Below are positions 2,182 to 60,094 of a stretch of 64,000 nt of DNA, one piece after another. Under the pieces are notes generated by a model, which saw only the letters and a program-made list of their open reading frames with translations, made no database searches and was not told the DNA's origin. The DNA is from Opitutales bacterium (lineage in GTDB: Bacteria > Verrucomicrobiota > Verrucomicrobiia > Opitutales > UBA953), in the NCBI GenBank assembly GCA_017440935.1, contig JAFSAO010000010.1, positions 1-64,000 on the forward strand, given 5' to 3'. A program made the translations under genes and the position numbers. Every line of letters starts with the position of its first letter. Within the stretch, counting starts at the first letter, position 1.

Positions 2182-2224
2182 AAAAACGGAAGCCGGCAAT
2201 TTTTCCGCCAGCTTCCGTTTTTTT
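2182..2224 (+). terminator. Rho-independent terminator of aspS
   Basis: AAAAACGGAAGC (2182-2193) pairs with GCTTCCGTTTTT (2211-2222), with a smaller GGC/GCC stem inside, followed by a T run. It lies 23 bases after the aspS stop. Confidence 0.9.
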
Positions 2225-2236
2225 TTGTTTCTCAAA

Positions 2237-2286
2237 AAAAAGCGTTCCCGCGGAGAAACGGCTTTCGCCTCGCGGGAACGCTTTTT
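2237..2286 (-). terminator. Terminator of panD built from two facing CGGGAACG words
   Basis: AAAAAGCGTTCCCGCG (2237-2252) is perfectly complementary to the 16 bases at 2271-2286. Each arm contains one copy of the abundant CGGGAACG word. On the minus strand the stem runs into a run of T, immediately downstream of the panD stop at 2299. Confidence 0.88.
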
Positions 2287-2298
2287 GCGAAGAAAAGA

Positions 2299-2700
2299 TT
2301 ACTGCTTAAATTTCGCAACGATTTCTGCAGGAGCGACATCGCTCTGCAATTTCACGATTTTTGAGTTTCCTTCGCCGAAAACCACCACGCGCGGTGTCCA
2401 CTTCAACGCTTCCGCTTCTTCCATGTGCGCGAACGACATAATGACGATAAGGTCTCCGACTTTCCCGAGGTGGGCGACGGCACCGTTGAGACAGAACTCG
2501 CGGGAACCGGCGGGAGCCGGGATGGCGTAAGTTTCAAAACGATGTCCGTTGGAAATGTTTCCGACGAGAATTTTCTCATTCGGCAGCATTCCGATCATCT
2601 GCATAATTTCACTATCAATGGCGAGACTGCCTTCATAGTGAAGCTGCGCGTCGGTTACTTCGGCGCGGAGAATTTTGGTTCGAAGAATTTCCAGTTGCAT
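2299..2700 (-). CDS. panD: Aspartate 1-decarboxylase (pro-enzyme)
   Basis: Makes beta-alanine for pantothenate and coenzyme A from aspartate. The 133-residue product has the family self-cleavage site exactly where expected: YEGS with Gly24-Ser25, which is processed to the pyruvoyl cofactor. The conserved segments NGHRFETYAI and NGAVAHLGKVGD are present. It stands alone, divergent from lpxK, with a palindrome in the shared upstream region. No other pantothenate gene is nearby. Confidence 0.97.
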   Translation of the reverse strand: MQLEILRTKILRAEVTDAQLHYEGSLAIDSEIMQMIGMLPNEKILVGNISNGHRFETYAIPAPAGSREFCLNGAVAHLGKVGDLIVIMSFAHMEEAEALKWTPRVVVFGEGNSKIVKLQSDVAPAEIVAKFKQ

Positions 2701-31617: not shown

Positions 31618-31727
31618 CGCGTCCGAAGCCACCTTTATTCCTGCGGGAACGCCGCCCGAAGCCGAGCTTCTTGCGGACAACTAAAACGTTGCCGCGGGAA
31701 CGCAAAACCGACAAAATTTTCGGCACT

Positions 31728-32921
31728 ATGGCAAAACAAGTCGTTTCTCCCCGCGTTCGCGGATTCGTTTGCATTACGGCTCATCCGGAAGGTTGCGCCG
31801 CTCACGTTCGCGAGCAAATCGCCTATGTAAAAAGCCGCCCGACCATGAAGAACGGCCCGAAAAACGTTCTCGTCATCGGTTCTTCCACGGGCTACGGGCT
31901 TGCTTCGCGCATCGCTGCCGCTTTCGGCTCGGGTGCAAACACGTTCGGCGTTTATTTTGAACGCCCGAGCGCCAACAACAAACCCGCTTCCGCCGGGTGG
32001 TACAACACCGCCGCGTTTGAAGCCGAGGCGAAAAAAGCCGGGCTCTACGCCGCTTCCGTCAACGGCGATGCATTTTCCGCCGAGCTTAAAACGCAAGTTA
32101 TTGAGCGCCTCAAGAAGGAAATGCCGCAAATCGACCTCGTTGTTTACTCGCTTGCCGCACCGCGCCGCACCGATCCCGTTACGGGCGAAGTTTACAAGTC
32201 CGTTTTGAAAACCGTCGGAGAACCGTTTGTATCCAAAAATTTAAATACGGACCAAAAACTCGTTAACGAAGCGACGATTGAGCCCGCAAACGAGGAAGAA
32301 GTTAAAGCGACGATTAAAGTCATGGGCGGCGAAGACTGGAAGCTCTGGATTGACGCGCTCGACGAAGCCGGGCTTCTCGCCGAAGGTTGCCAATCCGTCG
32401 CGTATTCTTACATCGGACCGTCGCTGACTTGGCCGATTTACAAAGACGGTTCTATCGGACAGGCGAAAAAAGACCTTTACGCCAAGGCGAAAGAAATCGA
32501 TGCGATTTTGAAAATCAAACGCGGTCGCGCTTTTGTTTCCGTCAACAAAGCACTCGTCACGCAGGCATCGTCGGCAATTCCGGTCGTTCCGCTTTACATC
32601 TCGATTCTGTTCAAAGTGATGAAAGCAAAAGGCTTGCACGAAGGTTGCGTTGAGCAAATTCAGCGCCTCTTTGAAACCCAGATGTACAACGACAACGCGC
32701 TTAACTACGACGAAAACGGACTCGTCCGTATCGACGATTGGGAAATGCGCGAAGACGTGCAGAAGGAAGTCTTTGAAATTTGGCCGAAGGTTTCGACGGA
32801 AAATCTTCTCGAACTCACGGATTTCAACGGCTACCAGACGGACTTCCTGAAACTCTTCGGTTTCGGTGTCGACGGAGTCGATTACACAGCGGAAGTCGAA
32901 GTCGAAGTTCCGATCGGATAG
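31728..32921 (+). CDS. fabV: Enoyl-[acyl-carrier-protein] reductase, FabV type
   Basis: Last step of each fatty-acid elongation cycle, or trans-2-enoyl-CoA reduction in fermentation. From the ATG at 31728 the product is 397 residues, the family length, and begins MAKQVVSPRVRGFVCITAHP. It has the cofactor loop VIGSSTGYGLASRIAAAFG and the FabV active site TWPIYKDGSIGQAKKDL, where Tyr and Lys are separated by eight residues. FabV is known to resist triclosan. The frame is open further upstream, but that part overlaps the helicase gene and is non-coding in character. Confidence 0.95.
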   Translation: MAKQVVSPRVRGFVCITAHPEGCAAHVREQIAYVKSRPTMKNGPKNVLVIGSSTGYGLASRIAAAFGSGANTFGVYFERPSANNKPASAGWYNTAAFEAEAKKAGLYAASVNGDAFSAELKTQVIERLKKEMPQIDLVVYSLAAPRRTDPVTGEVYKSVLKTVGEPFVSKNLNTDQKLVNEATIEPANEEEVKATIKVMGGEDWKLWIDALDEAGLLAEGCQSVAYSYIGPSLTWPIYKDGSIGQAKKDLYAKAKEIDAILKIKRGRAFVSVNKALVTQASSAIPVVPLYISILFKVMKAKGLHEGCVEQIQRLFETQMYNDNALNYDENGLVRIDDWEMREDVQKEVFEIWPKVSTENLLELTDFNGYQTDFLKLFGFGVDGVDYTAEVEVEVPIG

Positions 32922-32953: not shown

Positions 32954-32985
32954 AAAGAGCGTTCCCGCGCGGGAACGCTCTTTTG
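32954..32985 (+). terminator. Terminator of fabV: a perfect palindrome of two CGGGAACG words
   Basis: AAAGAGCGTTCCCGC (32954-32968) is followed directly by its exact complement GCGGGAACGCTCTTT (32969-32983), a 30-base palindrome ending in T. It stands 33 bases after the fabV stop, behind low-complexity AAAGCTTAAAGATTAGAGCT words. Confidence 0.85.
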
Positions 32986-33012: not shown

Positions 33013-33050
33013 AAAAAAACGTTCCCGCGAAATATCTCACGGGAACGCGA
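33013..33050 (-). terminator. Terminator of the PEP-CTERM gene: facing CGGGAACG words
   Basis: CGTTCCCG (33020-33027) and CGGGAACG (33040-33047) enclose CGAAATATCTCA. On the minus strand the stem is followed by eight T. It begins 22 bases after the gene end. The same 28 bases recur at 34198-34225. Confidence 0.82.
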
Positions 33051-33068
33051 AACTTTAAAATCGGCAGA

Positions 33069-33944
33069 TTATTTGCGCCGGCGGCGCGAAGCGACGAGAG
33101 CCAACGCACCTATGCCTGCGAGCAAACCGAACGCCGACGGCTCGGGAATGTTTTCCGCCTTGCGAGTCCACTTTGTAAACGAGTTCTGAGGTATTCCGTT
33201 TTCGGAGCCGATAAAAGTAACGTCACCCATGCTTGATTTATTTCCTCCGGAGGTCGTTGCGTCTCCGATGAGATGAAATCCGATATCATCAAAAACCTTT
33301 TGCGTATGTCCTCCGGCTCCGAGGTGTGATGAGTTCAGTTTGAGAAAGTATGTGTTGGCTCCGGTCGTCTCGTTTTTCACTCCGAAGTAGATTTTGTCGT
33401 TAATGGACGAGTCGGCAAATGTTTCAAAAATGATTGTATATTGATAATGTCCATCCCCGTAATTGAAGTTGTTGGCCGATGTCCAAACTTGTGTTCCGGC
33501 GGAACCGAAAGCAAGAGATTCAACTGCAGGCGTATTTGGAACGTCTTTATACAACAAAACTCCGGCTTGACACATTACAGTCGGAGAATTTCCGAAAACG
33601 ATACAAACATCATTGGAAGTGGTTACCATCGAGAGCATTCCTGATGCGGGTTGTGTGTCGCCAAGCCCCTTGTCATGAACCATTTCAAATGTGATTTCGT
33701 AGCGGGCATCTTGGGTGAAGTCCACTTTCATGTTTGAGTTTCCGTGGATTTGGACTTCGTTAGCCGCGCCTGTTGAGCTCGTGTTTGTTCCCGTGAAGGT
33801 GAGTTTTTGTTCTTGGGTGTAAGTGTATTTCACCTTGTCGGTGTCCTGTTCCCAGATTTTTGTTTTTTGAGATTCCGTCCAAGCGGCGGCGCTGAGCGTT
33901 CCCGCGAGAAGGAGAGTTGGTATCGATAAGAATGATTTTTTCAT
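33069..33944 (-). CDS. PEP-CTERM sorting domain protein, exported
   Basis: A 291-residue surface or exported protein. From the ATG at 33944 it has a signal peptide (MKKSFLSIPTLLLAGTLSAAA), then a beta-rich region with many Thr, Asn and Gly, including a pattern like a laminin-G or concanavalin fold (my reading of the beta pattern only). It ends with the complete sorting tail IPEPSAFGLLAGIGALALV followed by RRRRK. In PEP-CTERM systems this tail is processed by an exosortase; none is in this window. The gene is more AT-rich than its neighbours and has a 245-base AT-rich region upstream. Function unknown. Confidence 0.85.
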   Translation of the reverse strand: MKKSFLSIPTLLLAGTLSAAAWTESQKTKIWEQDTDKVKYTYTQEQKLTFTGTNTSSTGAANEVQIHGNSNMKVDFTQDARYEITFEMVHDKGLGDTQPASGMLSMVTTSNDVCIVFGNSPTVMCQAGVLLYKDVPNTPAVESLAFGSAGTQVWTSANNFNYGDGHYQYTIIFETFADSSINDKIYFGVKNETTGANTYFLKLNSSHLGAGGHTQKVFDDIGFHLIGDATTSGGNKSSMGDVTFIGSENGIPQNSFTKWTRKAENIPEPSAFGLLAGIGALALVASRRRRK

Positions 33945-34189
33945 ATGTATTTTTGTTGTTTCAATTGAGAGCAAGAGACCGTCTCCTGACAAACAGACCC
34001 AATTGTGATTTTAATTCTCGCAAAAAAAAAAAGCATAGTGTCAAATAAAATCTACAAAAATGGTAGTATAAATAAGCATGGGGAAAGAATTTTAGGAAAA
34101 ACCTTCGCTGCTCTTTATTGATAAGATAGTGTGCAATCTTTTACATTTGTTTTCGTAAAAACTCTGCACTGAAAAATAAATTTACGGAT
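33945..34189 (-). promoter_or_regulatory. AT-rich upstream region of the PEP-CTERM gene
   Basis: A long A/T-rich stretch holding runs of A (around 34021-34031), several TATAAAT-like words and no open frame of note. It is probably the promoter region of the PEP-CTERM gene. I cannot pick one promoter with confidence. Confidence 0.4.
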
Positions 34190-34232
34190 AAAAAAAGCGT
34201 TCCCGCGAAATATCTCACGGGAACGCTTCTTT
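34190..34232 (-). terminator. Terminator of leuS: facing CGGGAACG words
   Basis: GCGTTCCCG and CGGGAACGC enclose CGAAATATCTCA (core 34198-34225), with an A run at 34190-34196 that becomes the T run on the minus strand. The core is identical to 33020-33047. TTAAGCCTTAAGCTCTAACC words lie between it and the leuS stop. Confidence 0.85.
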
Positions 34233-34260: not shown

Positions 34261-36858
<2,598 letters not shown>

Positions 36859-36975
36859 GTTGAAAAAATATTTCGCGCAATCATAGATTTTTCGCGGGAA
36901 CGGCGCAAATTGAAATTCAGAGCTCTTCGCGACCTCTTTTTCGCACCTATTTATTCTTATCTTTAATTTTGAACA

Positions 36976-37017
36976 AAAAAAAATCGGCACACGCAGACCG
37001 CGTATACCGATTTTTTT
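36976..37017 (-). terminator. Terminator of nifJ
   Basis: ATCGGCACACGC pairs with GCGTATACCGAT (two G-U pairs) around AGACC, with A runs on the left and T runs on the right. It begins 16 bases after the nifJ end, on the minus strand. Confidence 0.8.
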
Positions 37018-59695: not shown

Positions 59696-60073
59696 ATGAA
59701 CGAAAACGATTTTGAAAAAGCCGTAGCCGAGATTACCGAACGCGACTCACGCTTCGCGCCCGCCGCCTACGTCTTCGTCTCCGGCGCGCTCACGGAAACG
59801 GCGCGCCGCCTCGGGCGTTCCCGCAAGTCTCCGGTAAAGCAACGCCACATTTCCGGACAGGAACTCGCCGAAGGCGCGGCAGACTTTGCCGAAGAACAAT
59901 TCGGCTCACTCGCCTATTCCGTTTTGCGCGAATGGGGCGTAAAAACCACGCGCGACATCGGAGACATCGTCTTCAATCTCATCGACGTCGGAATTTTTTC
60001 AAAAACCGAGGAAGATTCCATCGACGACTTCGACAATGTCTTCGATCTGCGTTCCCGCCTCCTCAAAAAGTAA
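59696..60073 (+). CDS. Minf_1886 family protein
   Basis: A 125-residue protein of a family found across Verrucomicrobia and relatives. The family pattern is clear: RDSRFAPAAYVFVSGALTET, RHISGQELAEGAADFAEEQF, LREWGVKTTRDIGDIVFNLI and an end with KTEEDSIDDFDNVFD. Function is unknown. It starts at the ATG at 59696, 29 bases after the hexosaminidase stop. Its presence supports placement in the PVC superphylum. Confidence 0.85.
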   Translation: MNENDFEKAVAEITERDSRFAPAAYVFVSGALTETARRLGRSRKSPVKQRHISGQELAEGAADFAEEQFGSLAYSVLREWGVKTTRDIGDIVFNLIDVGIFSKTEEDSIDDFDNVFDLRSRLLKK

Positions 60074-60094
60074 GTTGCGGGAACGGCAAAAAAG

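Follow-up and report, generated by a model that had tools for sequence, protein, structure and literature searches.

At four places in a 64,000-nt stretch of the genome of an uncultured gut Verrucomicrobiota bacterium (the window, by which we mean the whole stretch of DNA that was analysed), two copies of the octamer CGGGAACG face each other beyond the end of a gene. This raises the questions of whether such pairs are transcription terminators, and of what keeps the word so common. CGGGAACG is non-palindromic, its reverse complement being CGTTCCCG, and the window carries 196 copies counted on both strands, or 1 per 326 bp, where shuffled sequences predict 7. The 1.84 Mb genome contains 5,274 copies (~2.9 per kb), divided evenly between the strands (2,654 and 2,620), and the reversed word, used as a control, occurs 85 times (54 and 31). 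An earlier note on this DNA had read the facing pairs as terminator stems, and had taken this to support an uptake-type origin of the word over an explanation by codon bias.

Facing octamers at gene ends in the window

All four of the pairs that the note had listed (CGTTCCCG followed by CGGGAACG) are present, the T-run that it described lies on the terminating strand in each case, and its gene names panD, fabV, PEP-CTERM gene and leuS are upheld by profile matches (Table 1). The hairpins lie 18-38 nt after the stop codons and have predicted folding energies of -21 to -31 kcal/mol. When folded as sense RNA their z scores range from -4.4 to -7.4, with no shuffled sequence being equally stable. 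We note that a word-free terminator of aspS stands back to back with the word-built terminator of panD.

Table 1. Genes, terminators and facing word pairs in the window (dG in kcal/mol, from sense-RNA folds for the four word-built terminators)
Feature	Coordinates	Strand	Remarks
aspS terminator, word-free	2186-2226	+	dG -21.6; aspS is at 366-2159
panD terminator, facing word pair	2243-2280	-	gap 22; T8 run on the - strand at ~2234-2241; 18 nt past stop; dG -30.9, z -4.9
panD (aspartate decarboxylase, Asp_decarbox)	2299-2700	-	PF02261, E 2e-40; ended by the 2243-2280 hairpin
fabV-type trans-2-enoyl-CoA reductase	31671-32921	+	PF12241, E 5e-112
fabV terminator, facing word pair	32960-32977	+	gap 2; 38 nt past stop; dG -22.3, z -4.8
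PEP-CTERM gene terminator, facing word pair	33020-33047	-	gap 12; dG -21.3; identical to 34198-34225
PEP-CTERM motif protein gene	33069-33992	-	inserted between two identical hairpins
leuS terminator, facing word pair	34198-34225	-	gap 12; 35 nt past stop; dG -28.8, z -7.4
leuS (leucyl-tRNA synthetase)	34261-36990	-	profile match
Fifth facing pair	60050-60085		no T-run; overlaps gene end; not terminator-like

A more complex relationship is seen around the PEP-CTERM gene. The sequences at 33020-33048 and 34198-34226 repeat each other exactly over 29 bp in direct orientation, and they bracket a 1,178-bp segment holding the gene (window 33020-34226). A related contig (L030, 7637-7790; SIG76) contains the empty site, with a single hairpin in which the leuS terminator runs straight into that of fabV. 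The four examples of the earlier note are therefore all real, but the hairpins at 33020 and 34198 are one hairpin that was duplicated around the PEP-CTERM segment, such that the window provides three independent examples. It may be that terminator hairpins provide sites of recombination at which genes are inserted.

Orientation, structure and conservation of the paired words

Genes were called in 464 kb, approximately a quarter of the genome, with a home-made hexamer caller (90% coding). The intergenic regions of this sample contain 34 facing pairs within 30 nt, compared with 6.7+-2.3 expected and a maximum of 18 among 500 shuffles in which the words were re-placed at random, in position and orientation, within their own intergenic regions. 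Divergent pairs are as frequent as chance predicts (6 vs 6.7), and there are three tandem pairs. Eighteen of the facing pairs lie between genes arranged tail-to-tail, where just one divergent pair is found, 14 lie tail-to-head and two head-to-head. Pairs within coding DNA are near random in orientation (18 facing, 11 divergent and 43 tandem), and the whole genome has 184 facing and 79 divergent pairs, with none for the reversed-pattern control. The earlier note had proposed to look for an enrichment of facing pairs 0-100 nt after stop codons; 34 are seen there and 7.5 are expected from the local density of single words, so inverted pairs clearly exceed the single-word expectation. Words outside facing pairs occur in the same 100 nt at 3.6 per kb, which is near background.

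The intergenic pairs also have the anatomy of intrinsic terminators: a stable, GC-rich hairpin stands close behind the stop codon and leads into a T-run. Base pairing extends beyond the words by 2.75 bp inward and 4.9 bp outward, compared with 0.54 and 0.85 bp in coding pairs, and the adjacent 10 nt contain 6.95 T residues on the terminating side vs 4.95 on the other side. Where a facing pair serves the genes to its left and right, both of its flanks are rich in T, and the distance from the stop codon is 13-76 nt. Single copies of CGGGAACG have only a weak flanking bias (C then G/A before the word, C after it) and their flank composition reveals no A/T tract, and the T-runs are therefore specific to the terminators. 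Among terminators predicted by a heuristic hairpin-plus-T scan, CGGGAACG is present in 50 of 98 (51%) at dG <= -15 and in 38 of 60 (63%) at <= -20.

Comparison with related genomes shows that pairing is kept while the sequence changes, albeit in small numbers. A facing-word hairpin follows leuS in four congeners (contigs L029, L030, L031 and L034), and the loops in L029, L031 and L034 are unrelated. The leuS hairpin of RGIG7497 (G001), a congener with few words, has lost one word but retains pairing through a G-U change (CGTTCCCG/CGGGGACG), and compensated arms (CGCTCCCG/CGGGAGCG) are found in G000 and G001. The note's terminator reading is well supported: the pairs follow stop codons, they have T-runs and extended stems, they are directional, and they are conserved although their loops have changed. 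It is very probable that the facing octamers function as intrinsic (Rho-independent) terminators, with two opposed copies of CGGGAACG supplying the arms of the stem. From these features we infer that the hairpins terminate transcription in the cell.

Distribution and decay of the word in the genus

CGGGAACG is restricted to, and spread across, one genus, which leuS places near Candidatus Spyradosoma (Opitutia) and whose close relatives by leuS derive mostly from animal gut metagenomes. In a comparison made mostly with draft metagenome assemblies, six of eight congeners (genomes of 1.6-2.1 Mb) have ~5,200-6,550 copies, and two are depleted at similar GC content, G001 with 1,362 and G006 with 546. 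Elsewhere in the family and the order, counts of the word match or nearly match those of the reversed control. No one-letter dialect of CGGGAACG was confirmed in the sister genera. CGGGTACG appeared to be such a dialect in one of them (g2) and was rejected, being confined to one repetitive gene region on a single contig (L131, G008) rather than dispersed; this region spans at least ~19 kb with 31 copies of CGGGTACG and probably encodes a giant surface protein rich in repeats. G006 (L109-L115, L162, L166) and AH.B6_3 (L033) have a further dispersed repeat, built around ACCACCAACC. In G006 it is present at ~0.65 per kb and clustered, both between genes and within them (as TTNP repeats), and it is absent from the samples of our genome and of G001. 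Thirty-eight viral contigs with word hairpins were considered as viruses of the genus, but their word density reaches at most 0.91 per kb, below that of the host, and none is a clear case.

A tree of 12 proteins makes G001 and G006 sisters, with the high-word G004 adjacent (98/97 and 99/100), so that loss of the word on their branch is the simplest account. The leuS tree conflicts with this and was discarded as a species tree, because the leuS of G001 looks transferred. That gene (L032, 5034-7733) is 88% identical to ours and falls within our clade, whereas aligned genes of G001 average ~74% identity, and the excess suggests recombination between species.

Words in aligned genes are maintained above the neutral expectation in high-word congeners of our clade. 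The fractions of our words that are kept in G005, G003, G002 and G007 are 0.91, 0.74 (51 of 69), 0.62 and 0.62, compared with 0.54, 0.30, 0.25 and 0.24 for permuted control octamers. G004 is more distant and keeps just 1 of 10, reflecting positional turnover despite its rich word content. In G001 and G006, by contrast, 15 of 97 (0.15) and 3 of 81 (0.04) are kept, vs 0.16 and 0.08 for the controls, and the lost words often differ by 1-3 substitutions at the same place, showing that words are gained and lost through point mutations.

In G001, facing pairs outnumber divergent ones by 75 to 7, which is about as large an excess as in the high-word genomes, although single words are four times fewer. 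Word density is 2.9/kb in the 100 nt after stop codons vs 0.57 in coding DNA, and of its 12 coding words in diverged genes, 8 fall where our genome also has one, as relics would. Dispersed words in G001 and G006 have decayed at the neutral rate and paired terminators have persisted, and the terminator role is therefore a constraint separate from the force that spreads the word.

Alternative origins of the word

Four other explanations for the word and its pairs were weighed. The word could be held in place by a methyltransferase or by methyl-directed repair, with its use in terminators being secondary. The cyanobacterial octamer HIP1 (GCGATCGC) is likewise dispersed at high frequency and is linked to methyltransferases (PMC4390886), and word loss in G001 and G006 could reflect loss of such an enzyme. 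However, HIP1 and its alternates are palindromic and CGGGAACG is not, and terminators are unmentioned in PMC4390886; we regard this origin as unlikely.

A Chi-like or other signal oriented with respect to replication or recombination would similarly be short, dense and non-palindromic. It should nonetheless prefer one strand, and the G-rich strand of 20-kb blocks carries 676 of 1,369 copies (in a draft genome with its origin unmapped), matching the overall balance between strands. E. coli Chi is also far sparser than the ~3 per kb seen here, and an explanation of this type is quite improbable.

It is harder still to credit that a small mobile repeat of the REP or MITE type gave rise to the hairpins by copying, and that they did not form independently as terminators. 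The two identical hairpins flanking the inserted PEP-CTERM gene are what such an element might leave, but 44 of 46 hairpins differ from one another outside the word, with varied loops, and so are not copies of one element; moreover, most words stand alone within genes, and they appear and vanish by substitution at aligned positions.

The explanation by codon or amino-acid usage, with facing pairs arising by chance, has a negligible probability and is refuted by intergenic density (4.81 per kb vs 2.77 per kb in genes, over the 464 kb) and by the excess of facing over divergent pairs after stops: 84% of copies do lie inside genes with sense frame 1 and antisense frame 2 favoured, but all six frames are used, and two congeners are depleted at similar GC content.

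Sequence-selective DNA uptake as a probable source of the word

The earlier preference for an uptake-type origin over codon bias is thus borne out in its second half, codon bias being rejected by the use of six frames, the greater intergenic density and the neutral-rate loss in two congeners. Use in terminators does not by itself point to uptake, since a stem could be made from any abundant non-palindromic word. The case for uptake is built instead on several properties together. Like the DNA uptake sequence (DUS) of Neisseria and the uptake signal sequence (USS) of Haemophilus, CGGGAACG is a short non-palindromic word with at least about 1,000 copies on both strands, both genic and intergenic, and it is lineage-restricted. 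Its density, symmetry, genus restriction, maintenance (in trans, as its positions turn over in the distant G004) and co-option into terminators are best explained by sequence-selective DNA uptake, which we consider the probable means by which it spread. The sample has no long CGGGAACG-free island, the longest gap being 3.0 kb vs 2.4 kb expected, in which the depletion in mobile DNA that is usual for uptake words could show.

Genes of kinds used in natural transformation are present in all eight genomes, including ComEC, DprA, PilB/PilT-type ATPases and prepilins. ComEC and DprA are retained in both low-word genomes, as are all seven kinds of prepilin-type gene found in the others, and word loss is therefore not explained by the loss of these genes. 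A stand-alone ComEA was not detected; a strong match to PF12836 (HHH_3) lies in a frame of ~800 aa that is probably Tex, and was set aside. None of the prepilins shows higher conservation in the high-word genomes than in the low-word ones, and no receptor for the word emerged from this comparison. Extra pilins in the low-word genomes proved to belong to a type II secretion system. G006 and G001 (L162, L164, L165, L166) encode this system in full (GspE and, by position and prepilin motif, GspG/H/I/J/K/L/D-like proteins), and it is missing from the six high-word congeners.

A plausible scenario is that something recognising CGGGAACG in trans holds ~3 copies per kb across the genome, most probably through sequence-selective uptake of DNA during natural transformation and its subsequent homologous recombination. 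With copies so dense on both strands, two opposed copies would often come to lie close together after a gene, and those gaining complementary flanks and a T-run would be selected as terminators, independently of the genome-wide pressure. We give the whole explanation, in which CGGGAACG pairs are terminators and the word is held by an uptake-type drive, a probability of approximately 0.72.

Comparison with known uptake words

The closest parallel is in Neisseria, where pairs of the DUS (GCCGTCTGAA) serve in terminators (Kingsford et al. 2007, PMC1852404; Frye et al. 2013, PMC3630211). There too, thousands of non-palindromic copies occur on both strands, one pair orientation is strongly preferred (226 vs 5 for pairs within 10 nt in N. 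meningitidis Z2491; PMC1852404) and tail-to-tail regions are enriched. The share of strong predicted terminators containing CGGGAACG (51-63%) is close to the 54-57% of likely operon ends that use DUS in Neisseria, and above the 16-29% of terminators with USS (AAGTGCGGT) in Haemophilus and other Pasteurellaceae (PMC1852404). CGGGAACG differs in being another, shorter and GC-rich word, in another phylum. It is also more numerous, as N. meningitidis has 1,892-1,935 copies of DUS (PMC1852404) and Kingella denitrificans up to 3,603 (PMC1852404; PMC3630211), and the high-word congeners exceed both; per Mb, CGGGAACG reaches roughly three times the count of DUS in N. meningitidis. In H. influenzae, with a similar genome size (1.83 Mb), paired USS likewise form terminator stems, but the orientation preference is weaker (50 vs 25; PMC1852404) and the extended AT-rich motif of USS is absent around CGGGAACG.

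No report of uptake words in Verrucomicrobiota was found in our search of open papers and, as far as the literature searched shows, such words have been described in just two groups of proteobacteria. On balance we favour the view that an uptake-word system arose independently in Verrucomicrobiota, denser than any in that literature, and that its words were co-opted as terminators; in one sister pair the pressure would then have lapsed, leaving dispersed words to decay neutrally and terminators as fossils. A third case, from another phylum, would bear directly on whether transformation generally gives rise to uptake words or does so only by rare accident. Since one genus holds both high-word and decayed species, the order of events can be put to the test, with the genome-wide word coming first, the terminators second, and the terminators outlasting loss of the word. 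If the uptake reading is true, CGGGAACG would serve to recognise natural transformation among those Verrucomicrobiota of the gut that have not been cultured.
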